From an uncultured Pseudomonadota bacterium (GTDB taxonomy: Bacteria; Pseudomonadota; Gammaproteobacteria; Steroidobacterales; Steroidobacteraceae), in contig CAIOHZ010000210.1 of the NCBI GenBank assembly GCA_903858165.1, positions 1-58,320 of the forward strand: 58,320 nt of DNA. The letters run 5' to 3'. The position numbers were made by a program, and so were the translations under genes. The notes beneath the pieces are model-generated. The model ran no database searches. It was not told where the DNA came from and saw nothing but the letters and a program-made list of their open reading frames with translations. Within the stretch, counting starts at the first letter, position 1. Each line of letters begins with the position of its first letter. Below are positions 1-35,255 of the stretch, piece after piece.

Positions 1-55
1 CCTCGCGGTCACGGATGACATCGACATTGAAGTCGTCGAATTCCCTCAAGTCCAT
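1..55 (-). CDS. 5' end of an unidentified gene running off the left edge
   Basis: An ATG at 55-53 on the minus strand opens a frame of 18 codons (MDLREFDDFNVDV...) that stays open to the window edge. A purine-rich AGGGG lies about 8 bases upstream. It follows the esterase stop by 65 bases in the same direction, so it would be the last visible member of the leftward operon. The fragment is too short to identify. A catabolic enzyme completing the D-amino-acid pathway would fit the setting, but nothing in these residues shows that. Confidence 0.4.
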   Translation of the reverse strand, partial: MDLREFDDFNVDVIRDRE

Positions 56-120
56 GAACGCACCCCTGCAAGCAATTGCAGCATTATAGCTCGCGCAAAA
101 CTGCCCGACTCCGAGCTCTT

Positions 121-1131
121 CTAAGGGCGCAACGGCACCGCAAAGTCCAGCATCTCGTTCAACGCGGCCCAAGCGACGCTGACGTGCGTTTCCTCCGGGA
201 CCACCCGCCCCTTCACTTCGTAGCCGGCCGGCCCGTCCTTCAGTTGGAGAACTTTCAGCATTTCCAGCGTGTTGTCCACCATCGCGGCGCGCGCCATGAG
301 TTGCGAAAATTGCGCCTCTGTCATGCCGGGCGGAGCCTTCCAGGGCAGCGGTAGCGCGGGGTCGGGTTGCTCGAGCGAGCCCACCGCAAAATACACACGC
401 GGTGCCACCTCGCCCTTTTCTACCCGCTTCAGGAAGGCCGCTCTCCCACCCAAAACCGCACGCCCATCCCACCAGATGGAAGGGCTGAGCACCAAATAGG
501 TCTGGAAGTACTCTGGGTGGGTGAACAGCGCGTGCAGCGCGAACAAGCCGCCCAAGGAATGCCCGAACAGCGTGCTGCGCGTGCGGTTGATCGGCACCAC
601 GGCCTCCACCTTCGCTGCAACCTCGTTGTAGATGATCTGCAGCAAGTCGTCAGCGCCGGCGTACAGCGCCGCGGCACTCGCGGGCAAAGCCGCAACCTCT
701 TTTCGCCGTTCTGGGTCGATGGTCGGCACCAACTCGTTCACGCGCCGCTGCATGGCGACGTCGAGATCTTGCTCCGCCTCGGGGTAACCGATGCCGACCA
801 CCACGGCCGGTTCAAGCTCCTGCGACATCGCGCGCAGCCGCGCAGCAAAGGCCCAGGTACCGAAGTAGCCATCGCCGTCCGTGACATAGATGACGGGGAA
901 TCCACCCGCTGGAGGCTTCGCCAGCGGCAGCGCAATCTGTATCCGGTAGTCTCGGCCGTTGACTGTCGAGCGGAAATCGATTTGCCGACTACTCGGTACG
1001 GTTGCCGATTGCAGAGCTGGGACGGAAACAGCCGGCCCGCCTTCGACGACCGCTGGCGATGGAGCGGCCATTGCCAGCGCGTTCGTAACGATGCACGCCA
1101 CTAGTACCAACCGTGCGCTTAGCGTTTTCAT
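121..1131 (-). CDS. Exported esterase-family alpha/beta hydrolase (enterochelin esterase / esterase D fold)
   Basis: A 336-residue protein with a hydrophobic N-terminal signal sequence (about residues 1-22). It has a PF00756-like esterase domain, a nucleophile elbow GHSLGG at 190-195 (Ser192), and a probable catalytic His316 in EETHVS. These features predict a periplasmic or secreted serine hydrolase of the IroE/Fes-like group; the substrate cannot be read from sequence. The start at 1131 is chosen because its ATG overlaps the stop of the upstream serine hydrolase in an ATGA, implying translational coupling, and because it gives a proper signal peptide. The frame could be extended to 1311, but that adds arginine-rich out-of-family sequence. 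In the operon context it may cleave ester or peptide-like bonds in imported oligomers. Confidence 0.85.
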   Translation of the reverse strand: MKTLSARLVLVACIVTNALAMAAPSPAVVEGGPAVSVPALQSATVPSSRQIDFRSTVNGRDYRIQIALPLAKPPAGGFPVIYVTDGDGYFGTWAFAARLRAMSQELEPAVVVGIGYPEAEQDLDVAMQRRVNELVPTIDPERRKEVAALPASAAALYAGADDLLQIIYNEVAAKVEAVVPINRTRSTLFGHSLGGLFALHALFTHPEYFQTYLVLSPSIWWDGRAVLGGRAAFLKRVEKGEVAPRVYFAVGSLEQPDPALPLPWKAPPGMTEAQFSQLMARAAMVDNTLEMLKVLQLKDGPAGYEVKGRVVPEETHVSVAWAALNEMLDFAVPLRP

Positions 1132-3014
1132 GTCCAGCTCCGAACCCCAATGATTCCCCAATACCCGAGGTAGGCCACGCCGAGGAGCAGGCCAACGGCA
1201 CAAAAGCGTCCGTGCCAGCGAACCACGGACCGTGCCGCGTTGGAGCTTCCAAAGAATGCCAAATAGACGAATGCCAACGTGGAGGCCGCCAACAACCATG
1301 TAGCGACGCAAAGACCGACTGAGAACACGGACGCCGACCCGAAGTTCGTCAGCACATCACCGGTCCCCGAAGCAACGAGCGCAACCGTGCCAACCAACGA
1401 CAACACCGGCAGCAACCCGGCAACACGTAGCGTCCGGTCAACCGGACGAGGACCACGAACCCAGCGCCCCACCAACCAGAAGGGGGCGTAGAGCACGATG
1501 GCTGCAATGGACAGCACGAACCATGCCACACCGAGCAGTTCCGCCATCACTGCCCAAGTAGGCACGCGCCGCATCGTGCCGGCAGAACCGCCCGAACCGA
1601 TGAAAAGACCGTCTGGCTGCGGCTTCAGTAGCGCCAGGGTAGCCACTGGTTCCTCATGACCCGTATCGGTACGACGCAGTGTCCGTCCGCCGGCCGAGAC
1701 GTAATGCTGTTGCTCGCCTCCGAGCAGCGGCGACATCACCAGCACATCGCCCTGCACTTCGACGTGGGTGAGGCCCACCAGCCGCTCCAGAAAGCGGAAC
1801 ATCTCGCTGCGGGGTGAATCGGGTTGGTACCAGCCCACATAGTTATTCGCGAAGGCCGGCAGCGATTGCGCGGGTGGCAGCGCAGGTGGGGTGAGCCCAC
1901 GTAGTGCGTAACGGCGAATGACATTTTCGAGGCGCTGGAAAGCAGCACCATTGTCCGCGTTGATGCTCATGAAAAAGCCTACTCCGGCGCTTGGTACATA
2001 AGCCATGGCGGTCAAGCCGCCACTCACCCCGCCGTTGTGGCCATGAACCACGAAGCCGTCGGCCACCGTCGAATAGTTGTGAAGACCATAGCCAATGCTT
2101 ACGCCCTCCTTCGCTGCCCAAGAGCGCGTAGGAACCTCCATGCGGTCGACAGAGGCAGACGAAACCACGGCCTGCTCGCCCACTTTTCCGCGATTCAGAT
2201 AGAAGGCGAGATACGCCGCCATATCCTTGGCCGAAGCGTTGATGGAGCCGGACGGTCGCACAATGATGTGCCAGTACGGGTAAGGCGTTTTTCCGTCGGC
2301 ATGGTAAAGCGTCGTCGCGGGCAGTCCCACCGGCTCCAGATAGTTGGCCGTGCGCATGCCGAGAGGCGCAAACAAATGCTCAGCGACATAGTTCTCAAGT
2401 GTTTGGCCCGTCACCTGCTCAACCACCGCGGCAGCCATGGTGGTGCCAGCGTTCGCGTAGGACATCCGCGTTCCCGGCCGCCAACGCGAACGATGGGAGC
2501 CGGCATCGAAAGTCATACCTTGATGAAGCGTCCAGCCCTTAGCCTGTTGCGCGAACTCCCGGAGTTTTAGGTCGTCCCAACCGGCCGTATGTTCCAGCAG
2601 GTCGGCAATCAGTACGGGGTCCGTGGCTTCCCAAGGATTGTCGTAGGGAATGTCCTTCACGTACCGGCCAACCGGATCCTGAAGCGAAACTCTCCCCTGC
2701 TCGACCAATTGCAGTAACGAGAGCGCCGTGAAGGCCTTGGAGGTGGAACCGATGCGGAACATCGTGTCGGCAGTGGCGGGTTCATTCCGCTCTACGTTTG
2801 CCAGCCCAACGGCACCCACCCATTCCGGGCCATCCTTACGGACGATGGCCACGGAAACACCAGGTACGTGCATTTCGGTGAGGATGGCTTGCAGTTGCGC
2901 CTGTAGGGCTGGCAAGGAACCAGCAACCGGGTCCTTGGGAGGTTCCGGCGCGCCAAACGCGGGCACGGCGAACAGCACGGCCAGTGAAAGTAACCACTGA
3001 GCGATAGATTTCAT
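1128..3014 (-). CDS. Serine hydrolase of the beta-lactamase / class C (S12) family with C-terminal membrane domain
   Basis: A 628-residue exported protein with signal peptide at about 1-22. The family triad of motifs is intact: S90-T-S-K93 (SxxK), Y186-A-N188 (YxN) and H326-N-G328 (HxG, replacing KTG). The catalytic domain spans about 35-390. After a linker, several hydrophobic segments from about residue 480 to the end suggest a membrane domain, so the enzyme is probably anchored with its active site outside the cytoplasm. Family members include DD-carboxypeptidases, D-aminopeptidases, D-esterases and true class C beta-lactamases. The neighbouring D-amino-acid genes favour a peptidase acting on D-residues over antibiotic resistance. 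Its ATG overlaps the DgcN-like gene stop and its own stop overlaps the esterase start (both ATGA). Confidence 0.88.
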   Translation of the reverse strand: MKSIAQWLLSLAVLFAVPAFGAPEPPKDPVAGSLPALQAQLQAILTEMHVPGVSVAIVRKDGPEWVGAVGLANVERNEPATADTMFRIGSTSKAFTALSLLQLVEQGRVSLQDPVGRYVKDIPYDNPWEATDPVLIADLLEHTAGWDDLKLREFAQQAKGWTLHQGMTFDAGSHRSRWRPGTRMSYANAGTTMAAAVVEQVTGQTLENYVAEHLFAPLGMRTANYLEPVGLPATTLYHADGKTPYPYWHIIVRPSGSINASAKDMAAYLAFYLNRGKVGEQAVVSSASVDRMEVPTRSWAAKEGVSIGYGLHNYSTVADGFVVHGHNGGVSGGLTAMAYVPSAGVGFFMSINADNGAAFQRLENVIRRYALRGLTPPALPPAQSLPAFANNYVGWYQPDSPRSEMFRFLERLVGLTHVEVQGDVLVMSPLLGGEQQHYVSAGGRTLRRTDTGHEEPVATLALLKPQPDGLFIGSGGSAGTMRRVPTWAVMAELLGVAWFVLSIAAIVLYAPFWLVGRWVRGPRPVDRTLRVAGLLPVLSLVGTVALVASGTGDVLTNFGSASVFSVGLCVATWLLAASTLAFVYLAFFGSSNAARSVVRWHGRFCAVGLLLGVAYLGYWGIIGVRSWT

Positions 3015-4036
3015 ACCGGAAACTCCTGCAGCATTCGCTGAATAATCGGGCCCGTGCCTTCCACCAGCGGATCAATACACGGCAACCCCGTCTCCGCGGC
3101 ACAGCGGGCGAGATGGCCCTGTCTTTCGCTCGCGTCCATAGCCGAGGTATTCAGGGAGATGCCCACGCAGCGGATAGCCGGGTTGGTGAGGCTACCGATA
3201 GCGACCGTACGGTCGATAACTTGCTGCAGGCTTGGCAACGGGAAATCGGGCCAGCCGCCAACATGCTGGCGTCGCGGGTCATGACACACGACGAAGGCGT
3301 CGGGCTGTGTCCCCACCAGCAACCCGACCGTCACCTGCAGATAGCCCGGATGGAAGAGGCCACCCTGCCCCTCCACCACGTCCCAATGGTCAGCGTGCGC
3401 ATCCGGGGAAAGGGTTTCAGCGGCGCCTGTCAGAAAGTCCGCGACCACGGCATCGATGGGAATGCCGCTGCCGGCAATCATGATGCCGGTCTGGCCGGTG
3501 GCACGAAAATCGGCGTCCACACCAGCGGCGCGCAAATCTTCAGCTAAACGTAGCGCCGTGTATTTTTTGCCGCAAGCACAGTCGGTGCCCACGGTAAGAA
3601 CGCGCCTCCCCGAACGCTTGCGTCCGGTGCCGACGGGCAAGTTTGTTGGCGGCACTCGCAGGTCCACCAACCGAGCTCCGCCACGCTCGGCAGCCGCCTT
3701 CAAGCCCGGCAAGCTCTCCAGACGAATGTGCAGACCGGCCACGATATCCAAGCCCCGCTCGGCGGCTTGGCAAAGGAACGGCACCCAGCTAGCTGCCACA
3801 CCACCGCCTACCGCCGCCGAACCGATGACGACGCTACCGGCACCCGCGGCGATAGCGGCAGGAAGGTCGAGTTCCGCGACGCCCACATCGACGGTGCAGC
3901 CAGGGAGCCGCACCTGTCCGAGGCAATCTTCACCCCGCCACTGCGCCAGACCGAACGCGGTCTTGGCAAACATAGCGCTTTGAATATCTCCCAGGAAAAC
4001 GACGAACGGCGCGCGGAACGAGGTGAGGGCAGTCAC
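3011..4036 (-). CDS. dgcN: DUF1611 family protein, DgcN-type D-glutamate N-acetyltransferase
   Basis: A 341-residue cytoplasmic protein. It shows the DUF1611 layout: an N-terminal Rossmann-like part (FVVFLGD near residue 11), a P-loop-like GTDCACGKK at 150-158, RATGQTGIMI at 178-187, and EGQGGLFHPGY at 222-232. DUF1611 includes DgcN, which acetylates D-glutamate ahead of the racemase DgcA, so the likely product is N-acetyl-D-glutamate. The start is a GTG at 4036; the next ATG would cut off the conserved first strand. The receptor gene stops 31 bases upstream, and the 3' end overlaps the serine hydrolase start by four bases. No DgcA-like racemase is visible in the window, although the operon continues past the left edge. 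Substrate assignment rests on family resemblance and context. Confidence 0.75.
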   Translation of the reverse strand: MTALTSFRAPFVVFLGDIQSAMFAKTAFGLAQWRGEDCLGQVRLPGCTVDVGVAELDLPAAIAAGAGSVVIGSAAVGGGVAASWVPFLCQAAERGLDIVAGLHIRLESLPGLKAAAERGGARLVDLRVPPTNLPVGTGRKRSGRRVLTVGTDCACGKKYTALRLAEDLRAAGVDADFRATGQTGIMIAGSGIPIDAVVADFLTGAAETLSPDAHADHWDVVEGQGGLFHPGYLQVTVGLLVGTQPDAFVVCHDPRRQHVGGWPDFPLPSLQQVIDRTVAIGSLTNPAIRCVGISLNTSAMDASERQGHLARCAAETGLPCIDPLVEGTGPIIQRMLQEFPV

Positions 4037-4067
4037 GCCGCCCCCACTCGTCCACGCTTCTGCATCA

Positions 4068-6329
4068 TCAGAACTTCGCTCCGAACTGCACGCCTACGGT
4101 CCTGGGCGCCGTGAACACCGCGTAACCACGCTGGAGTCGCGAACCATTGTTGCCGTAATCGAGGATACCGGTCTCGTTGCCCAGGTTCTGCGCAAACACT
4201 TCCAGCGTATAACGGCCGCCGAAATCGACACCGAGCTGCGCGTTCAGCGTGGTGTACGAGGGCAGCGCCACGTGTGGCTCGATGACAGCGACGGAAGGCG
4301 AGAAGCCCGTATAGCGCTTGCCGACGCTATTGACGGAGAAGCCACCGAACACTGCCTTGCCTGCCACCGTGCCGTTGAAGTCCACGTTCAGCGTCGAGGA
4401 CGTGCGGGGAACATAAGGCAGTTCGTCACCCTTGAAGGCGCCGAGACCCGCAGCATCGGTCTTCAGCTTGGCGTCCGTATAGGCGCCCAAATAGCCGATA
4501 CGCAGGTTCTCCGTGGGGCGCCAAGCGAGGTTCCATTCGACGCCTTGGCTCGTCGCTGACCCCGAGTTGCCGTTGACACCAATCGGGCCATTTTCGGTCG
4601 GTACTAGCCCCAGAATCTGGACGTCCTTCCAGTCAATTTTGAAAACAGCCACGTCGATAGATACCTTGCCATCGGCCAACTGCGTACGGAAACCGACTTC
4701 GTAGTTCTTGGTCGAGTCCGGCAGGAAGTTCGGGGGATCCGGCAGCGGCGGCGTGGGGAAGTTCGGGCCGCCCGGACGGAATCCGGTTGCCAAGCGGGCA
4801 TACAGCAGGGTGTCTTCGTTGATTTTCCAGCGCGGTGCCAGCGACCAAGTCGTCTTGGACTCAGCGGAATCGCGCACCGGATAGGTCGTTCCCGGCCCGT
4901 AGATAATGCAACAACCCAAAACGGTCTGCTGCTGCTGGTCTACCTTGGTATAGCGCACGCCCGCTTCCACGTCGAAGCTGTCCGTGAAGTGGTACGTAGC
5001 ATCGGCGAACGCCGACCGTTCCTTGTAGTTGGCAGGAATATTGGCGTCGCCGACCGGCGGTGCCAATACCGCGAGCGTGGTCTTGTTACGCGCCACATAG
5101 GGTTGGATGAGGGCAACGGATTCACGGGTGAAGAATCCTCCCACCTGCCAGTCGAGTTTTGAGTCTTCCCCACGCTTGTTCGAAGACAGCCGGATTTCCT
5201 GATTGAACTTGTGGACAAAGTTGGTTTCGTTGCCAGTTAGCAGCACGCCAGCCGGTTGCCCGTAGATCGCTCCGCCGAAAAAGTCTCCGTAGGAAAGACC
5301 GGCCGCCAGGTTTAAATTGGAAATATCGCTACTGAATACCAGATCATTCTTGCCGTAACTGGTGGCGGAGGTCAGCGTCATGTCGCCGAAGTCGTAATCA
5401 ATGGTGAGTGCGCCCACTTTCAAGTCAATTTCATTGCTGTTGTTCCACAAGGTACCCTGTGACATGCCGTCAATGGCGTCGAACTTGTTGTTCGGCGGAG
5501 CCGCCGGCGTCAGTGCAGCACCGACCACTTCCACGTTGTTGTTGTTATCCGCCTTGGTTTTCTGGGCAAAGACCGTGGCCCGAATGGACAGCGCATCCGA
5601 TGGCTGCAGCAGCAGCGAAGCGCGCCCACCCTGCACTTTGACGCCGTTGATGTTCTTGGCGCCAGTAAGCGGGTTGTCGACATAGCCCGGCGTCTCGTTG
5701 GAGAACGCGACGACGCGCAGCGCCGCCTTCCCGTCCCAAAACGGTACGTTGATCATGCCCTTGGCGAAGCCCTTAGAGTCGCCGCCCGACGTGGACAGCA
5801 TGCCGACGCGGAACGCGCCGTCGAACTTGGTCGGGTCGGGCCGGTTGGTCACGTACTTGATGAGGCCACCTTCAGCCGAGGCGCCGTACAGCGTGCCCTG
5901 CGGGCCGCGCAACACCTCGATACGAGCGAGATCGAACGAGTCGATGTTCGCGCTGAAGAAAGCGCCGTTCGACTGCGCGCTGGACATGAAGAACGGGATG
6001 TCGTCGATGGTGGTCGCCACGGTGGCGCCTACACTGCCCACGTTCTGGCCGCGGATGACAATGCGGGTCTTACCGGCGTCGATGGACTGGAGGGAAAGGC
6101 CCGGCACCTGCTCGGTGAGGTCCTGCAAGCCCGAATCGTGGCGCAACTCGAGGTCTGCTGCCGTGACGGCCGTAATGGACATCGCCACGTCTTTCAGCAA
6201 CTCCTCGCGCTTGGTAGCGGTTACCACGACTTCATCTACATCGTTCGCGGCAGCGAACACGGTACCAATACTAAAAGGCAAACCGGCGGCGAGCAAAGCG
6301 ACGCGCAGCGGCGTGGTGGTGATCTTCAT
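4068..6329 (-). CDS. TonB-dependent outer-membrane receptor
   Basis: A 753-residue protein with a signal peptide (about 1-26) and a TonB-box-like segment DEVVVTATK near 32-40. A plug domain follows (DVAMSITAV..., then the RVLRGPQGTLYG-type motif read here as IEVLRGPQGTLYGA). A long beta-barrel ends in an aromatic residue (GVQFGAKF). These are the hallmarks of TonB-ExbBD-energised uptake of substrates too large or scarce for porins. It is first in the leftward operon, ahead of the acetyltransferase and exported hydrolases, as in peptide or glycan utilisation loci. No FecA-type N-terminal signalling domain is visible, and control probably comes from the divergent XRE-cupin regulator. Siderophore uptake is the main alternative, but no iron-related gene is nearby. 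Confidence 0.93.
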   Translation of the reverse strand: MKITTTPLRVALLAAGLPFSIGTVFAAANDVDEVVVTATKREELLKDVAMSITAVTAADLELRHDSGLQDLTEQVPGLSLQSIDAGKTRIVIRGQNVGSVGATVATTIDDIPFFMSSAQSNGAFFSANIDSFDLARIEVLRGPQGTLYGASAEGGLIKYVTNRPDPTKFDGAFRVGMLSTSGGDSKGFAKGMINVPFWDGKAALRVVAFSNETPGYVDNPLTGAKNINGVKVQGGRASLLLQPSDALSIRATVFAQKTKADNNNNVEVVGAALTPAAPPNNKFDAIDGMSQGTLWNNSNEIDLKVGALTIDYDFGDMTLTSATSYGKNDLVFSSDISNLNLAAGLSYGDFFGGAIYGQPAGVLLTGNETNFVHKFNQEIRLSSNKRGEDSKLDWQVGGFFTRESVALIQPYVARNKTTLAVLAPPVGDANIPANYKERSAFADATYHFTDSFDVEAGVRYTKVDQQQQTVLGCCIIYGPGTTYPVRDSAESKTTWSLAPRWKINEDTLLYARLATGFRPGGPNFPTPPLPDPPNFLPDSTKNYEVGFRTQLADGKVSIDVAVFKIDWKDVQILGLVPTENGPIGVNGNSGSATSQGVEWNLAWRPTENLRIGYLGAYTDAKLKTDAAGLGAFKGDELPYVPRTSSTLNVDFNGTVAGKAVFGGFSVNSVGKRYTGFSPSVAVIEPHVALPSYTTLNAQLGVDFGGRYTLEVFAQNLGNETGILDYGNNGSRLQRGYAVFTAPRTVGVQFGAKF

Positions 6330-6446
6330 AAGCGGCGTTCTCCCTCATTACTGATTGTTTTGGAACTAGGCATTGCCAAAGCAGGCGAAGCCTTCCAGTC
6401 GATTTGTTGGCCGACTCTATCGCCTAAGTACCGTTTATTGCAACCC

Positions 6447-6468
6447 AATTTTCTGTTTCAGGAAAATT
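6447..6468. promoter_or_regulatory. Inverted repeat between receptor and regulator genes, candidate operator
   Basis: AATTTTC (6447-6453) and GAAAATT (6462-6468) form a perfect 7-bp inverted repeat with an 8-base spacer. It sits in the 216-base divergent gap between the receptor and the XRE-cupin gene. The AT-rich dyad stands out in this GC-rich DNA and is placed to control both directions. That the divergent regulator binds it is inference. Confidence 0.45.
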
Positions 6469-6545
6469 AGGAAAGCCATGTTGCCGTTCGCCGGGGGGCA
6501 GACTAAAGTGCGACGGCTACCACCTTTTAATGCCACGAGAAGCAA

Positions 6546-7262
6546 ATGAGCGAGACCAAACCGCCGACCCGTCCCGGGGCCGTTCTTAAGTCCATCCGTA
6601 TCCGCCGCGAGTGGACACTGGCCGAGGTGAGTCGCCGTACCGGCTTCCCGGTGTCCACGTTGTCCAAAATGGAGAACGACCGGGTTTCGCTAACCTACGA
6701 CAAGCTGATGCGCCTGAGTACGGGGCTGGGCATTGATATCTCGCTGTTGTTCGGCGCCAACACCGAAGAACCGGCTACCTCAACCACCCAAGGCCGACGC
6801 AGCATTACCCGTAGCGGCGAGGGCCGCCTGATCGATTCGCCGAACTACCGCCACCTCTACTCTGCCGCCGAATTATTGAACAAGCGCCTTATTCCCATCA
6901 TCGTCGAGCATCGGGCGCAGTCGCTAGCGGAGTTCGGTGAACTCGTTCGGCACGCGGGTGAAGAGTTTATCTATGTGCTCGAAGGGGAAATCGAGGTTCA
7001 TACCAGCCTCTATGCCCCTGTTCGCCTCAAGGCCGGTGACTCTATTTATCTGGATAGCACCATGGGCCATGGGTATGTGGCAGCGTCTCCAGGGGTATGC
7101 CGCGTGCTGGCGGTATGCTCGGCCAACGAGAGCCAGACGATAGCTGCCGTTGGCGGTGTGTCCCGCGAGGGCAGCGAGACCACGACGCCCCTCAAGACCC
7201 CCAAGATGCCACTTGCAACAGCGCCTGCCAAGCGCAAAGCCGCACCCCGCAAACCGCGTTAA
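6546..7262 (+). CDS. XRE-family transcriptional regulator with C-terminal cupin sensor
   Basis: A 238-residue protein. Residues about 12-68 form an XRE helix-turn-helix (RREWTLAEVSRRTGFPVSTL, KMENDRVSLTYDKLMRLS). Residues about 110-195 form a small cupin domain (HAGEEFIYVLEGEIEVH, LKAGDSIYLDSTMGHGY). The C-terminus is a basic Ala/Lys/Pro tail. XRE-cupin regulators of the PuuR/SutR type sense small molecules and usually control adjacent catabolic genes. This one lies divergent from the receptor operon and directly before the second hydrolase gene. AT-rich inverted repeats lie on both sides of it (6447-6468 and 7270-7309), consistent with control of both transcription units. The ligand is unknown; a D-amino acid or N-acyl derivative is a reasonable guess. 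Confidence 0.88.
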   Translation: MSETKPPTRPGAVLKSIRIRREWTLAEVSRRTGFPVSTLSKMENDRVSLTYDKLMRLSTGLGIDISLLFGANTEEPATSTTQGRRSITRSGEGRLIDSPNYRHLYSAAELLNKRLIPIIVEHRAQSLAEFGELVRHAGEEFIYVLEGEIEVHTSLYAPVRLKAGDSIYLDSTMGHGYVAASPGVCRVLAVCSANESQTIAAVGGVSREGSETTTPLKTPKMPLATAPAKRKAAPRKPR

Positions 7263-7269
7263 GCCCCGT

Positions 7270-7309
7270 ACCGAAAAAGTATTTTCAAAATCGGATAAAT
7301 TTTCGGTAT
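7270..7309. promoter_or_regulatory. Inverted repeat ahead of the second serine hydrolase gene, operator or weak terminator
   Basis: TACCGAAAA (7270-7278) is matched by TTTTCGGTA (7301-7309) across a 22-base AT-rich spacer, which itself contains the palindrome ATTTTCAAAAT (7282-7292). It lies between the regulator stop and the next gene. The ATTTTC/GAAAAT elements resemble those in the dyad upstream of the regulator. No U-run follows, so an operator or promoter element is more likely than a terminator. A shorter 6-bp dyad, AGGGCT/AGCCCT, follows at 7322-7335. Confidence 0.4.
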
Positions 7310-7384
7310 TGTAAACAAATGAGGGCTCTAGCCCTAGTGTCCGAATACCTTGGCTTCGCCACGGAGCCTTTGCTGGAGTCGACA

Positions 7385-9343
7385 ATGCCCAGTCTCATCC
7401 GTCATTTTCGCCACATTGCCTTTCTCTTGGCGGGCCTACTGGCCTTCAGCCTGCCGGCCAACGCCGACGAAGCGTTAGCCGCGGCGCGGCCACTCGAGCG
7501 CGCGGACTTGGAAGCCTGGCTGGACGGCATGGTGCCCGCCACCCTCGCCAAGGACGATATCGCCGGCGCGGTCATTACGGTCGTGAAGGACGGCCAAGTG
7601 CTGTTCCAGAAGGGTTACGGCTATTCGGACGTCGCCAAGCGCACGCTAGTCGACCCGGAAAAGACGTTGTTCCGTCCGGGTTCTGTGTCGAAGTTGTTCA
7701 CCTGGACTGCGGTGATGCAACTGGTAGAGGCCGGCAAGATCGACTTAGATGCGGACATCAACACTTATTTGGATTTCAAGATCCCGGCGCGAGCAGATGG
7801 CCCCATCACGATGCGCCACGTGATGACGCACACGGCCGGCTTCGAGGAACGGGTTAAGCAACTTATCGTCAGCGACCCGAAGTACATGCGCCCGCTCGGT
7901 GACTACGTATCGAAAGACATCCCAGTCCGCATTTTCAAGGCCGGCAGCACGCCTGCCTATTCGAACTACGCCACCACACTCGCGGGGCGCATCGTGGAAC
8001 GGGTTTCTGGCGAGAGTTTCGACGACTACATCGATAAGCATCTCTTCGCCCCTGCGGGCATGCACCATTCCACCTTCCGTCAGCCTTTGCCGGCCGCACT
8101 CCAGCCGCTAATGTCGCAGGGTTATGCCATCGCCACAGAGGCCCCCAAGCCCTACGAGATTGTGGTACCTGCGCCCGCCGGCAGTCTGGCCGCGAGCGGG
8201 GCTGATATGGCCCGGTTCATGATCGCTCAGCTTGCGTCCCGCGAAGGCGGTTCACCGGCGCTGCTTTCTGCTGCCACCGCAAAGCAAATGCATGAGAGCC
8301 GCTTTGCCTACGGCGTTGGCCCACTCAACCGCATGCTGCTCGGCTTTTACCAGACCGACTACAACGGGCGTCGTGTTATCGCGCATGGCGGCGACACCCA
8401 GTTCTTCCACAGTGAACTGCATCTTATACTGGACGAAAAAGTCGGTATGTTCATCTCGGTGAATAGCGCCGGAAGCAGCCGTTCACGCCTACGCACCGAT
8501 TTCTACGAAGGCTTCATGGATCGCTATTTCCCGGCACCCTCCGCAGCGCCGGTCGTGGCGGGGGTTCCTGAAGCAGTGGCCAAGCAACATGCCCAAATGG
8601 CGGCCGGCACCTACGAGAGTTCGCGCCGCCCAGACACCTCATACCTGCGCGTCCTGTCGCTCATCGGGCCTGTTAAGCTCACGGCAAACGCCGATGGCAG
8701 CCTCACCGGTGGACTCATCACCGGCGCCAATGGCAAGCCCCGCCGTTACGTCGAAGTCAGTCCGTTCGTCTGGCAAGACACTGTCACACGTTGGCGCCTA
8801 GCCGGCATCGTAGAAAACGGCCAGGTCACGCGTTTCACCATAGAAGAAGTCTCGGCCATCATGGTGTTGGACCGCTATCCTGCTAGCCGCGACCCGGCGT
8901 GGTTGTTGCCAGCGGTCGTCGTCGCGCTGGTCGCCACGTTGGGCACCGTCTTGCTGTGGCCCATCGCCGCTTGGTCGCGTCGCCGTCATGGGGTGAAGTT
9001 GCCGCTGCACGGCCCTGCGCTGCGCGCCCACCGCACCTCGCGCTTTGCCACCTTGGCGTTGGTGGCACCGAGCGTCGCTTGGATTATCTTCATCTTGCTC
9101 GCGGCTACCGGAGAAAACCTGCTCAATGGTAGCTTCGACGGCGTGGTCGTCGCCATTGAGGTAGCGTCCATCCTCGGTTACGTGGGCGGCACCATGGCGC
9201 TGCTGTGGGCCACCGCTCAGGCATGGAGTCTCGGCAGGCCATGGGCCGCACGCCTGTGGACCTTGGTACTTGCACTGTCCGGCGTGGTGCTCTTGTGGAC
9301 GGCGTATGTCCACCACTTCATGAATTTCTACCTCAAGTACTAA
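7385..9343 (+). CDS. Second serine hydrolase of the beta-lactamase / class C (S12) family with membrane domain
   Basis: A 652-residue exported protein; the start at 7385 gives a clean signal peptide ending near ADA at about 27. Active-site motifs are S100-V-S-K103, Y192-S-N194 and H334-G-G336. The hydrolase domain (about 35-390) is followed by a beta-rich linker and several hydrophobic segments between about 500 and 650, the same overall architecture as the leftward paralogue at 1128-3014. It is 17 bases upstream of the D-aminoacylase-like gene and so probably co-transcribed with it. Known S12 relatives cleave D-Ala-D-Ala, D-amino-acid amides or esters. Two such enzymes in one locus suggests peptides carrying D-residues as substrate, though specificity cannot be read from sequence. 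Confidence 0.88.
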   Translation: MPSLIRHFRHIAFLLAGLLAFSLPANADEALAAARPLERADLEAWLDGMVPATLAKDDIAGAVITVVKDGQVLFQKGYGYSDVAKRTLVDPEKTLFRPGSVSKLFTWTAVMQLVEAGKIDLDADINTYLDFKIPARADGPITMRHVMTHTAGFEERVKQLIVSDPKYMRPLGDYVSKDIPVRIFKAGSTPAYSNYATTLAGRIVERVSGESFDDYIDKHLFAPAGMHHSTFRQPLPAALQPLMSQGYAIATEAPKPYEIVVPAPAGSLAASGADMARFMIAQLASREGGSPALLSAATAKQMHESRFAYGVGPLNRMLLGFYQTDYNGRRVIAHGGDTQFFHSELHLILDEKVGMFISVNSAGSSRSRLRTDFYEGFMDRYFPAPSAAPVVAGVPEAVAKQHAQMAAGTYESSRRPDTSYLRVLSLIGPVKLTANADGSLTGGLITGANGKPRRYVEVSPFVWQDTVTRWRLAGIVENGQVTRFTIEEVSAIMVLDRYPASRDPAWLLPAVVVALVATLGTVLLWPIAAWSRRRHGVKLPLHGPALRAHRTSRFATLALVAPSVAWIIFILLAATGENLLNGSFDGVVVAIEVASILGYVGGTMALLWATAQAWSLGRPWAARLWTLVLALSGVVLLWTAYVHHFMNFYLKY

Positions 9344-9360
9344 GCCGCGCGGAGTACCCG

Positions 9361-11103
9361 ATGAACAGTCCCCTGCTTCGCAGCCTCGTCGCTGCCATAT
9401 TGGTCAGCGCTTTGCCCTCGGCCGCGGTAGCCGAGGCTGCGACCGTCACTTACTCCACCGTGCTGCGGCACGGCACGGTCTATGACGGTAGCGGCAGCAA
9501 GCCATTCGTTGGCGATGTCGCGCTGCAGGGAGACCGCATCGTTTATGTAGGCCCGAAAGCACCGGGTACTGGAGCGGTGGAGTTTGACGCCACCGGCAAG
9601 GCGGTAGCGCCTGGCTTCATCAACATGCTGGCCCACCCGGAAGAATCTCTGCTCATCGACAAGCGCGCCCTCAGCGATTTGCGCCAAGGCGTGACACTGG
9701 AAGTGATGGGCGAGATATCGATGGGGCCGTTGAACGACGCCATGAAGGCAGACTTCCTGCGCGCAGCGGACGCCTCGTTGACGTCTATCGACTGGACGAC
9801 ACTCGGCGAGTACCTGGAGAAACTGGAACGCAGCGGCATTTCTCCGAACGTTGCTTCCTTCGTCGGCGCAGGTACCGTTCGAACGTATGTCCTCGGCGAA
9901 GACAACGTTCAACCCGATACCACGCAGTTGGCCAAGATGCGCCAACTCGTCCGTGAAGCGATGGAGGACGGAGCGCTCGGTGTTACCACTGCGCTCATCT
10001 ACAACCCCAACACCTATGCCAAGACTCAGGAACTGGCGTCTTTGGCTACGGAATCCGGCGCCTGCGGCGGCATGTACATTGCGCACATGCGCAGTGAAGG
10101 CGACCGCCTGCTGGAAGCCATCGACGAGACCATCCAGATTGCCCGCGAGTCCGGTGCACCTGCCGAGATTTATCACCTGAAGGTCGCAGGCAAGCAGAAC
10201 TGGAACAAGCTCGACGCGGTCATCGCCAAGGTGGAAGCGGCCCGCGCCAGCGGCACGCGTATTACGGCGGACATGTACCTCTACCCCGCAGGGGCCACGG
10301 GGCTAGATGCCGCCATGCCCGCCTGGGTTCAGGAAGGCGGATACGCCAAATGGGCTGAGCGCCTCAAGGACCCGGCCACCCGCGCCCGCGTGGCAGCTGA
10401 AATGGATGCGCCCAAATCCGACTGGGAAAATCTTTATCGTGCGGCGGGCCCCGAAGGCATGTTGCTGCTGGCGTTCAAGAACCCGGCGCTTCGTCAGTAC
10501 ACGGGCAAGTCGCTGGCCGAAGTAGCCAAGCTGCGCGGCGTTACTCCAGCGGAGGCCGCGATGCAACTCGTCGTGGAAGATGGCACCCGCGTTGGGGTAG
10601 CTTACTTTCTGATGTCAGAGGACAACATGCGCCGGCAGGTAGCGCTGCCATGGCTCAGCTTCGGCTCCGACGCGGGCGCGCCGGCACCTGAAGGCGTGTT
10701 TCTGCAGTACGCCGAACACCCGCGGGCCTATGGAAACTTCGCGCGCTTGCTAGCGAAGTATGTACGTGACGAAAAGGTCATCCCGCTCGAAGAAGCCATT
10801 CGCAAGCTCACCTCCTTTCCGGCGAAGGTACTCTCGCTAACCGACCGTGGACGCCTAGCACCCGGACAGTATGCCGACGTGGTGGTGTTCGACCCGGCTA
10901 CCGTGCAAGACCACGCCACCTTCGACCAACCACACCAGTTGTCTACCGGCGTCACAGACGTTTGGATTAATGGGGTGCGCGCTCTGCAGAATAGCGAAGC
11001 CACCGGCTTACCCAGCGGCCGCGTAGTACGGGGCCGTGCCTGGCGCGGCGCTCCCGGTGGCGGCTGCCGCAAGGAAAGCAAAGACTGGACCTGGGAACGC
11101 TGA
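9361..11103 (+). CDS. Exported D-aminoacylase / N-acyl-D-amino-acid deacylase family amidohydrolase
   Basis: A 580-residue protein with a signal peptide (about 1-25) and the amidohydrolase barrel typical of D-aminoacylases. Visible motifs are VAPGFIN at 82-88, AHMRSEG at 241-247, YHLK at 271-274 and FGSDAGAPAPEG at 434-445 (Asp437). The C-terminal part has the family RKLTSFPAKVL and GQYADVVVFD blocks. The enzyme should hydrolyse an N-acyl bond on a D-amino acid in the periplasm. The usual HxH metal pair after PGFID is changed to Leu90-Ala-His92, and the canonical Cys ligand (in GNCG) is absent (MGEIS). It therefore belongs to a divergent subgroup. It follows the serine hydrolase by 17 bases. 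A role in releasing free D-amino acids from acylated peptides fits the locus. Confidence 0.85.
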   Translation: MNSPLLRSLVAAILVSALPSAAVAEAATVTYSTVLRHGTVYDGSGSKPFVGDVALQGDRIVYVGPKAPGTGAVEFDATGKAVAPGFINMLAHPEESLLIDKRALSDLRQGVTLEVMGEISMGPLNDAMKADFLRAADASLTSIDWTTLGEYLEKLERSGISPNVASFVGAGTVRTYVLGEDNVQPDTTQLAKMRQLVREAMEDGALGVTTALIYNPNTYAKTQELASLATESGACGGMYIAHMRSEGDRLLEAIDETIQIARESGAPAEIYHLKVAGKQNWNKLDAVIAKVEAARASGTRITADMYLYPAGATGLDAAMPAWVQEGGYAKWAERLKDPATRARVAAEMDAPKSDWENLYRAAGPEGMLLLAFKNPALRQYTGKSLAEVAKLRGVTPAEAAMQLVVEDGTRVGVAYFLMSEDNMRRQVALPWLSFGSDAGAPAPEGVFLQYAEHPRAYGNFARLLAKYVRDEKVIPLEEAIRKLTSFPAKVLSLTDRGRLAPGQYADVVVFDPATVQDHATFDQPHQLSTGVTDVWINGVRALQNSEATGLPSGRVVRGRAWRGAPGGGCRKESKDWTWER

Positions 11104-11642: not shown

Positions 11643-11716
11643 TGGAGGCGCGGGCGGGAGTCGAACCCGCCTGGAAGGATTTGCAGTCCTCTGCATAACC
11701 GCTTTGCTACCGCGCC
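11643..11716 (-). tRNA. tRNA-Cys (GCA)
   Basis: A full cloverleaf on the minus strand. The acceptor GGCGCGG pairs with CCGCGCC, the anticodon loop reads CTGCAAA with anticodon GCA, and the T-arm contains GGTTCGACTCC. The 3' CCA is encoded (TGG at 11643-11645 on the plus strand); length is 74 nt. It follows tRNA-Gly and pgsA in the same direction, as glyW-cysT follow pgsA in E. coli. The expected tRNA-Leu of that cluster is not seen. Confidence 0.95.
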
Positions 11717-11795: not shown

Positions 11796-11871
11796 TGGAG
11801 CGGGAAACGAGGCTCGAACTCGCGACCTCAACCTTGGCAAGGTTGCGCTCTACCAACTGAGCTATTCCCGC
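11796..11871 (-). tRNA. tRNA-Gly (GCC)
   Basis: A 76-nt cloverleaf on the minus strand with acceptor GCGGGAA/TTCCCGC, D-arm AGCTCAGTTGGTAGAGC, anticodon loop TTGCCAA (anticodon GCC), T-loop GTTCGAGCC, and encoded CCA. It lies 38 bases after the pgsA stop, matching the gammaproteobacterial pgsA-glyW order. Confidence 0.96.
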
Positions 11872-34250: not shown

Positions 34251-35255
34251 ATGCTCCTCCGCCGCCCTCGTGCATTCGTGACCGCCAGCCTGCTAATGGC
34301 GTTCAGTATCGCCACCCCTATCGTCAGCTTGGCTGCCAACGCCGAGGCGCAGTGGTTACCGCAAGCGCGTAGCAACGCCCTGCTACCACCGACCACCCGT
34401 GCGCAGCTGTATGCAACGCTGGACCGCTATCTGGTGGCGCTCAAGACCCGCGACCCGCTGAAGGTGGACTGGGCGGTGCACGTGCGCAACACCGAGAACA
34501 ACGTGGCGCTCATGGTGGGCGACGGCTTGTGGGGCACTATCACGGGCCTTGGTCCCTATGATCTTCGCTACGCCGACCCCATCACGGGACAGGTGGCCTT
34601 GTTCACGACAGTGACCGAAACTCGCGAAACCTCGGCCATGACGCTGCGGCTGCGGGTTGTCGCAGGCAAGGTCAGCGAAGTGGAAACCCTGGTGGTACGC
34701 CAGAGCGACTCGGGCATACGCTTCGAGGGACAAAAGTTCGAAGACAAGCCAGTGATGAACGAGGTACTACCACCGGCAGAGCGACTGCCACGCGCGCGCA
34801 TGGTGGCCTTGGCCGATGGCTATTTCGACACCCTGCAACTGAATGACGGCACGTTGTTCACGAAGTTTCACCCCGACTGCAACCGGGTAGAGAACGGCGT
34901 GCGAACGACGTACAACCCAGATTTTGCCGTGGTTCCCGTCGCCAAACTCGGCTGTGAAGAACAGTTCCGCATGGGCAACTACCGCTACGACGACCGTCTG
35001 CGCGACCGTCGTTTTCCTCTCATCGACGAGGAGCGCGGCGTGGTGCTGGCGGCTGCCTTCATTGATCATTCGGGGCGGCTGACCACCTACCAACTGACCG
35101 ACGGCACCACAGTGAAGTCCCCGCTCAACCGCCCGCACAGCTTCTACCTGTTCGAGGCTTTCAAGCTGAAAGACGGCGGCATCCAACAGATCGAGGCCAA
35201 TTTCATCACCGTGCCTTACAGCATGCCCTCGCCGTGGGATGACTGGGCCCCCTAG
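34251..35255 (+). CDS. Exported protein of unknown function (DUF8021-like)
   Basis: A 334-residue protein with a signal peptide (to about LAANA at 31); the ATG at 34251 has GAGG six bases upstream. Two similar alpha+beta units are suggested. The first includes a YLVALKTRDPLKVDWA-type NTF2/SnoaL-like start and FTTVTETRETSAMTLRLRVV. The second includes ALADGYFDTLQLNDGTLFTK and ends SFYLFEAFKLKDGGIQQIEA. Secreted proteins with this pattern are annotated DUF8021; no activity is known to me. It separates the NudJ-like gene from mnmA, which are usually adjacent. Confidence 0.7.
   Translation: MLLRRPRAFVTASLLMAFSIATPIVSLAANAEAQWLPQARSNALLPPTTRAQLYATLDRYLVALKTRDPLKVDWAVHVRNTENNVALMVGDGLWGTITGLGPYDLRYADPITGQVALFTTVTETRETSAMTLRLRVVAGKVSEVETLVVRQSDSGIRFEGQKFEDKPVMNEVLPPAERLPRARMVALADGYFDTLQLNDGTLFTKFHPDCNRVENGVRTTYNPDFAVVPVAKLGCEEQFRMGNYRYDDRLRDRRFPLIDEERGVVLAAAFIDHSGRLTTYQLTDGTTVKSPLNRPHSFYLFEAFKLKDGGIQQIEANFITVPYSMPSPWDDWAP

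Follow-up and report, generated by a model that had tools for sequence, protein, structure and literature searches.

The left end of a contig from an uncultured member of the Steroidobacteraceae (Gammaproteobacteria) raises the question of what is gained by encoding a TonB-dependent receptor, exported hydrolases and a transcription regulator next to a protein resembling DgcN, an enzyme of D-glutamate (D-Glu) catabolism. The stretch analysed, hereafter the window, is the entire contig CAIOHZ010000210.1 (G000:C210, 58,320 nucleotides; position 1 is the contig end) from a draft genome of 3.38 Mb in 307 contigs (GCA_903858165.1; 99% complete). We propose that this locus is probably one arm of a regulon for the use of D-amino-acid peptides, with D-Glu as the key residue. 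The gene families, their conserved linkage, the selection acting on them and the motif positions described below were read from the DNA and its translations.

Conservation of the dgcN neighbourhood

A DgcN search of 246 genomes of the order gave matches in 90, and 20 stretches were compared, 19 of them around DgcN copies other than that of the window. In addition, 79 loci from named genomes were taken from the best 80 of 585 matches. Of these, 42 in which DgcN is flanked by 8 kb or more on each side were counted, leaving out 36 with short flanks and one without a called DgcN frame (L089); a partner was scored at more than 70 BLAST bits against reference proteins. Linked to DgcN were DgcA or a dipeptide epimerase (40 loci), an S12 serine hydrolase (31), a TonB-dependent receptor (27), a YkvI-like protein (23), a D-aminoacylase-like protein (16), an M19 dipeptidase (15), an XRE-cupin regulator (14) and an esterase (3). 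Many of the 42 loci come from related sphingomonads and are therefore non-independent, and receptor-rich genomes weaken the receptor count taken alone.

Two comparisons across ten genomes bear on the hydrolases and the receptor. Twenty of 88 S12 genes lay within 10 kb of one of 20 DgcN copies, against 0.94 expected from their share of the genomes (binomial P = 5e-21), in a set of genomes that was chosen for close DgcN proteins, includes the window and counts the twin contigs C170 and C171 twice; 12 of the 20 copies had an S12 gene within this distance. The window receptor had 43 matches (E up to 1e-40), and the non-self receptors with at least 49% identity came from six loci (G173 twice, G190, G110, G106 and G161), all of them DgcN loci; the remainder had at most 36% identity, and four of the ten genomes had no such close receptor. 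The G161 receptor is in two pieces (G161:C53:54790-58357).

Organization of the locus

The region 121-11103 holds seven genes in two divergent sets, with two candidate operators.
121-1131, minus strand: exported alpha/beta esterase of the BES/IroE kind (PF00756, 72.3 bits; GHSLG nucleophile motif)
1128-3014, minus strand: S12a, signal peptide, S12 serine hydrolase domain (PF00144, 187.6 bits) and four predicted C-terminal membrane helices
3011-4036, minus strand: DgcN-like DUF1611 protein (PF07755/PF17396, 234.4/58.6 bits)
4068-6329, minus strand: TonB-dependent receptor of a subfamily occurring beside dgcN (PF00593/PF07715, 146.6/67.4 bits)
6447-6468, no strand given: candidate operator AATTTTCTGTTTCAGGAAAATT in the gap between receptor and regulator (motif scans of gaps)
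6546-7262, plus strand: XRE-cupin transcription regulator (HTH_3, 38.9 bits; Cupin_2, 48.5 bits)
7299-7315, plus strand: candidate operator ahead of S12b and the amidohydrolase (motif scan; conserved with the sister species)
7385-9343, plus strand: S12b, S12 serine hydrolase (PF00144, 204.9 bits) with four C-terminal membrane helices
9361-11103, plus strand: exported D-aminoacylase-like amidohydrolase with an altered metal site (Amidohydro_3, PF07969, 79.6 bits)

For each gene the best Pfam model exceeded its curated cut-off, and with the NCBIfam matches this bears out all seven families named in the first-pass annotation of the DNA, as well as their arrangement in two sets. The ATGA coupling described there holds on the left, where the receptor is followed after 31 bases by DgcN and then, through ATGA overlaps, by S12a and the esterase, and fails on the right, where 17 bases separate S12b from the amidohydrolase. 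A hydrophobic N-terminal segment was found in the receptor, S12a, the esterase and the amidohydrolase, consistent with the predicted export of the last two. Of the two SxxK hydrolases that had likewise been called exported, both have the motif and S12a the hydrophobic start; the N-terminus of S12b, whose likely start is 7385 and not 7097, is signal-like yet falls below the hydropathy threshold applied to the other four proteins. The C-terminal helices of both S12 proteins were absent from that annotation.

In the sister species (G173:C2, L035), the esterase, S12a, DgcN, receptor, regulator, S12b and amidohydrolase occur in the same order with an extra receptor inserted; its DgcN was placed from the DgcN search and the substitution-rate comparison, since frame calls there favoured an antisense frame. 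The ratio of non-synonymous to synonymous substitution rates (dN/dS) against this species was 0.05-0.31 for the seven genes (0.07 for the regulator), and all of them look to be under purifying selection. The dS values were lower for the esterase (0.23) and the amidohydrolase (0.38) than for the genes between them (0.74-1.47), which may reflect recombination. Genes for tRNA-Cys (11643-11716) and tRNA-Gly (11796-11871) lie directly to the right of the locus.

Elsewhere in the family, in genera represented by G106, G110 and G190, the same kinds of gene lie shuffled about dgcN together with M19, YkvI-like and DgcA genes, and no esterase was found among the matches in these clusters. The G110 S12b is split over two frames (L046:10898-12903). 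Further afield, the cluster forms a compact operon in Sphingopyxis terrae and is present in Stenotrophomonas bentonitica (L116) and on large sphingomonad plasmids (L158, L159 and L160). According to their annotations, three sphingomonad plasmid loci encode an XRE regulator, a serine hydrolase, a dipeptide epimerase, a TonB-dependent receptor, a DUF1611 protein and a hypothetical protein; a peptide transporter lies between epimerase and receptor in two of the three, and in two of the three a serine hydrolase and an amidohydrolase or dipeptidase follow the hypothetical protein.

Candidate operators and promoters

The window-genus motif WTTTTCNRWWTNNKRAA was read by eye from gap sequences and then used in scans. 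It matched its own genome four times, at window positions 6448 and 7299 and at the dgcN start on C170 and on C171, with no match in the control. Of seven matches in the sister species (control, one), two fall at the equivalent locus and one at the second dgcN; YkvI is preceded by an overlapping pair, and a receptor adjoining a regulator paralogue by a single site; the seventh is probably due to chance (C80:1407). The pattern was built from most of its sites, and what gives WTTTTCNRWWTNNKRAA weight is that hardly any other matches occur. The locus with the regulator paralogue (L148, G173:C79; 53% identity) also encodes, as read from the sequence, a probable class III aminotransferase beside the receptor and its same-motif site, and is perhaps a sister regulon.

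Sister genera have a 28-base element, TTGACAGTTCCGNNNNCGCAACTATACT, ahead of the receptor and ahead of dgcN, which reads as a putative sigma-70 promoter with an inverted repeat in the spacer. Allowing up to three mismatches, this pattern, itself derived from loci where it is then found, matched seven times in ten genomes and each time within a DgcN cluster (control, none); six of the ten genomes, including that of the window, were without a match. Window position 34963 has two mismatches to the sister-genera pattern and is unassigned or probably a chance match.

The regulator/S12b gap of sphingomonads and Stenotrophomonas contains TTGACAATTTTCTAATCAGGATCATTAT or sequences close to it. At two mismatches, CAATTYTCTAATCAGGA matched 20 times across 1.77 Mb of locus sequence, never in the window (control, none): ten in regulator/S12b gaps, which are the motif-defining stretches, seven before M19 or receptor genes, one between dgcN and an amidohydrolase gene (L045), one before a second dgcN (L110) and one unassigned (L078:4758). 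Two of the 12 motif-defining gap stretches (L126 and L132) had no match at this setting. Three sphingomonad loci from 81 plasmid records with a match served as a test set unused in motif definition, where at three mismatches the sphingomonad motif matched eight times, always either in the regulator/S12 gap (all three loci) or in the pre-receptor gap (two loci; control, none). The window element at 6447-6468 resembles the sphingomonad site CAATTTTCTAATCAGGA by eye and is unmatched by the pattern at two mismatches. The candidate operators would be bound by the XRE-cupin regulator. This protein shares its helix-turn-helix and cupin domains with PuuR-type regulators, from which it differs in the genes it accompanies and in a score far under the PuuR cut-off (NF007408, 46.5 bits against 211).

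The proposed D-glutamate step

The DgcN-DgcA pathway of D-Glu catabolism was reportedly first described by Yu et al. in the ISME Journal in 2023. Like that pathway, the clusters pair a DUF1611 acetyltransferase with an enolase-superfamily racemase, linked within about 10 kb in the 40 loci counted above, and they differ in the linkage to a receptor, periplasmic hydrolases, an amidohydrolase and an XRE-cupin regulator. Two studies report that DgcN and DgcA together turn D-Glu into L-Glu (PMC10845958, PMC12363236). The window DgcN-like protein matched PDB 7xrj (322 bits), and its predicted activity is that of a D-Glu N-acetyltransferase. Alignment of the copies showed it to be paralogous to the one linked to dgcA on C170/C171.

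The first-pass annotation had suggested looking for a DgcA-type racemase or a D-amino-acid dehydrogenase beyond the left end of the window, where this assembly has no sequence. In the sister species, no DgcA match was found within 3.7 kb left of the esterase, where one of three frames was Pfam-searched and proved to be a CDGSH/ferredoxin gene. The whole sister genome gave a single DgcA match, on C5 and not on C2, in a second dgcN-dgcA locus that also holds S12, M19, amino-acid permease and aminotransferase genes; at 403.6 bits this DgcA passes the curated cut-off of 400. In the genome of the window, DgcA matches are confined to C170 and C171, each of which gives only the first 149 residues of DgcA, the gene being cut by the contig end (C170, 142.9 bits). 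These near-identical 3.2-kb contigs (L037 and L038), both beginning inside dgcA, represent either strain variants or an assembly duplication. The enolase-superfamily C-terminal domain was found twice in the same genome. The full-length protein, on C2, was rejected as DgcA: its best matches were sugar-acid dehydratases, all below cut-offs, with no DgcA match.

Hydrolases proposed to act on peptides

S12a and S12b both contain SxxK, YxN and HxG motifs (STSK, YAN and HNG in S12a), and their PF00144 scores compare with a gathering score of 27. The four C-terminal membrane helices were predicted from hydropathy in both and, for S12b, also in the structure model. With the AlphaFold model of S12b (mean predicted local distance difference test score, pLDDT, 82.7), the first-ranked Foldseek match was Lip3 (9sn1), a DL-peptidase, which VIA-align superposed at Z 36.4 and a root-mean-square deviation of 4.0 over 441 residues. 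This alignment spans model residues 36-651, whereas most VIA-align matches cover only residues 35-385. With Lip3 and Lip7 of Paenibacillus (PMC13188892) S12b shares the S12 fold; by way of difference, identity to Lip3 is 19-22%, S12b sits in a Gram-negative D-Glu cluster and other S12 folds tie in Z. Lip3 cuts DL-amide bonds of the lipopeptide syringafactin, according to the same study (PMC13188892).

The colibactin peptidase ClbP shares the S12 domain (full-length ClbP, 7mdc; Z 34.6 over 331 residues). It has C-terminal membrane helices, as S12a and S12b are predicted to have; four are predicted here, and no biosynthetic cluster was seen alongside. An identification of S12b as ClbP was rejected, as ClbP ranks under Lip3 and was aligned chiefly in the S12 domain. 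In relatives, M19 dipeptidases share the cluster units, and oligopeptide transporters occur in L112 and on two plasmids.

The solved structures nearest to the amidohydrolase are D-aminoacylase (1rjp) and N-acyl-D-glutamate deacylase (3gip), to which most of the window protein is similar in two stretches (247 and 209.5 bits). It also matched NF006560 (PRK09061), which we take to be a D-glutamate deacylase-like subfamily, at 190.1 bits (cut-off 340). More distant D-aminoacylase-like groups are found near dgcN in other lineages.

Proposed pathway and alternative explanations

Every reaction, substrate, transport direction, repression step and ligand in the following scheme is inferred. The dedicated receptor would carry a peptide across the outer membrane, and the two membrane-anchored S12 hydrolases, joined in relatives by M19 dipeptidases, would cleave it at D-residues in the periplasm, with the amidohydrolase releasing the blocked or N-acylated D-residue. 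Passage across the inner membrane, of small peptides or of D-Glu, would follow, in relatives through an amino-acid permease, an oligopeptide:H+ symporter or the conserved membrane protein of the cluster that we presume to be YkvI-like. Two examples of the latter (L040:4279-5397 and L118:10993-12129) matched no Pfam model at E 0.001, and that of L118 no NCBIfam model at E 1e-10. DgcN would then N-acetylate D-Glu, DgcA would racemise the product to N-acetyl-L-Glu and a deacetylase would yield L-Glu. Repression, most likely exerted by the XRE-cupin protein at operators in both promoter regions, would be relieved by a D-Glu-derived ligand.

Several observations weigh against this scheme. DgcA was the sole partner of DgcN in eight of the 42 loci, and one locus had none of the families sought. 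The frames and a Pfam search of the whole window revealed no dgcA beside its dgcN, a further difference from the known pathway. Against NF041892 (equivalog cut-off 480) the window DgcN scored 435.6 bits over positions 1-325 of 326, the dgcA-linked copy of the sister species 438.9 and the Sphingopyxis copy 449.6; because all three fall just under the cut-off, we name them only DgcN-like. YkvI was not found in the genome of the window, so the inner-membrane step is hypothetical here. For S12b, Lip3 ties within one Z unit with an archaeal penicillin-binding protein homologue, esterase IS11, D-amino acid amidase and others; the S12 family spans esterases and beta-lactamases, such folds being among those that tie with Lip3, and the fold by itself cannot separate peptidase from esterase. 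As to the operators, the motifs were mostly built from sites they then find, the site on C170/C171 (1461-1477) overlaps the dgcN start codon at 1469 and may be a coincidence, and a scan of window positions 6200-7450 found no sigma-70 consensus, where relatives show TTGACA/TATACT.

The amidohydrolase adds a further difficulty. We take the D-aminoacylase metal site to consist of HxH, Cys96, His220, His250 and Asp366. The window protein reads GFINMLAH and MGE at the first two places, and so lacks the first His of HxH and Cys96; it retains the second His, His220, His250 and Asp366, the last three being shared with 1rjp and 3gip. The replacement extends to close orthologues: a clade of 12 sequences (at least 54% identity, window included) has GF[IV]NML[AS][HW] at the HxH place and a glutamate near the Cys96 place. 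A single-metal site with glutamate is our guess; the AlphaFold model (pLDDT 57.4) is too poor for judging it.

Four other accounts of the locus were considered. The same machinery might serve peptidoglycan stem peptides (L-Ala-gamma-D-Glu-...) as an outer-membrane route for the cell-wall turnover products of neighbours, a real possibility that we nonetheless place on the improbable side. D-Glu and D-alanine are both residues of the stem, DD-carboxypeptidases are among the S12 matches, the DgcA of the sister species also scored 260.1 bits with L-Ala-D/L-Glu epimerase (cut-off 343), and strain LCG007, with genes for both D-Glu enzymes, grows on peptidoglycan according to PMC11747546; on the other hand, the compact operons, in which family searches covered part of the genes, showed no recognisable muramidase, amidase or anhydromuropeptide permease. 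We think it unlikely that the locus acts on a nonribosomal product containing D-residues, either a lipopeptide or a cyclic peptide, whose acyl or lactone end is opened by the amidohydrolase or esterase, an antibiotic thereby becoming food. Lip3 and ClbP among the fold matches of S12b, the siderophore-lactone type of the esterase and the cluster in Stenotrophomonas bentonitica agree with this idea, yet not every lipopeptide contains D-Glu. In S. maltophilia, breakdown products suggest that inducible enzymes degrade lipopeptides to free amino acids (PMC12516957), which also agrees with it.

If the locus detoxified D-peptide or beta-lactam antibiotics and had no part in catabolism, it would draw on an S12 fold common to class C beta-lactamases and D-peptidases; we regard this as very unlikely, given that DgcN/DgcA, transporters and dipeptidases occur in the same units and, in sphingomonads, behind the same candidate operators. 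Least credible is a siderophore locus made up of the receptor and an IroE-like esterase, the remainder being incidental. The best NCBIfam match of the receptor is indeed the TonB siderophore receptor subfamily TIGR01783 (173.8 bits), and the best PDB matches of the esterase are BES (2qm0) and then ferric enterobactin esterase (6gi0); with the enterochelin esterase model NF007758 it scored 30 bits (cut-off 222). However, the receptor falls under the subfamily cut-off of 223.5, the window has no site within three mismatches of a Fur consensus, and the receptor subfamily tracks dgcN. An esterase match in three of the 42 full-flank loci likewise counts against this reading and suggests that the enzyme is accessory.

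The use of D-residue peptides thus stays our preferred explanation, and the interpretation given in the first-pass annotation is partly supported. Its proposal that such peptides are scavenged and that D-Glu enters catabolism through DgcN accords with the linkage, the candidate shared operators and the partner genes, with the place of dgcA corrected, and the conserved neighbourhood whose absence it had held to be damaging was found in relatives and among the 42 full-flank loci. Where it allowed acylated substrates, we favour peptides over simple N-acyl-D-amino acids because relatives carry M19 dipeptidases and peptide transporters; its D-aminoacylase holds at the level of family similarity and loses two metal ligands. 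Among the top matches of a literature search of titles and abstract openings, there was no account of this gene set as a system.

Implications

D-amino acids are reckoned among recalcitrant organic matter in two studies (PMC10845958, PMC12363236). The known D-Glu pathway begins with free D-Glu; the cluster would supply its missing front end, comprising receptor, periplasmic D-peptidases and transporters, together with a regulator. A more far-reaching and doubtful extension is that it represents a widespread, partly plasmid-borne Gram-negative regulon for eating D-residue nonribosomal peptides, lipopeptide antibiotics and cyanobacterial D-Glu peptides among them, in which, after import by the receptor, DL-peptidases anchored in the membrane and an amidohydrolase whose metal site has been remodelled would take the peptides apart, and the XRE-cupin protein would sense D-Glu or N-acetyl-D-Glu as a sign that such a peptide is present. 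The cluster occurs in cultured strains such as Sphingopyxis terrae. It would also define a subfamily of receptors whose class of ligands, other than siderophores, can be predicted, and it assigns a predicted DNA site to a regulator that is as yet uncharacterised.

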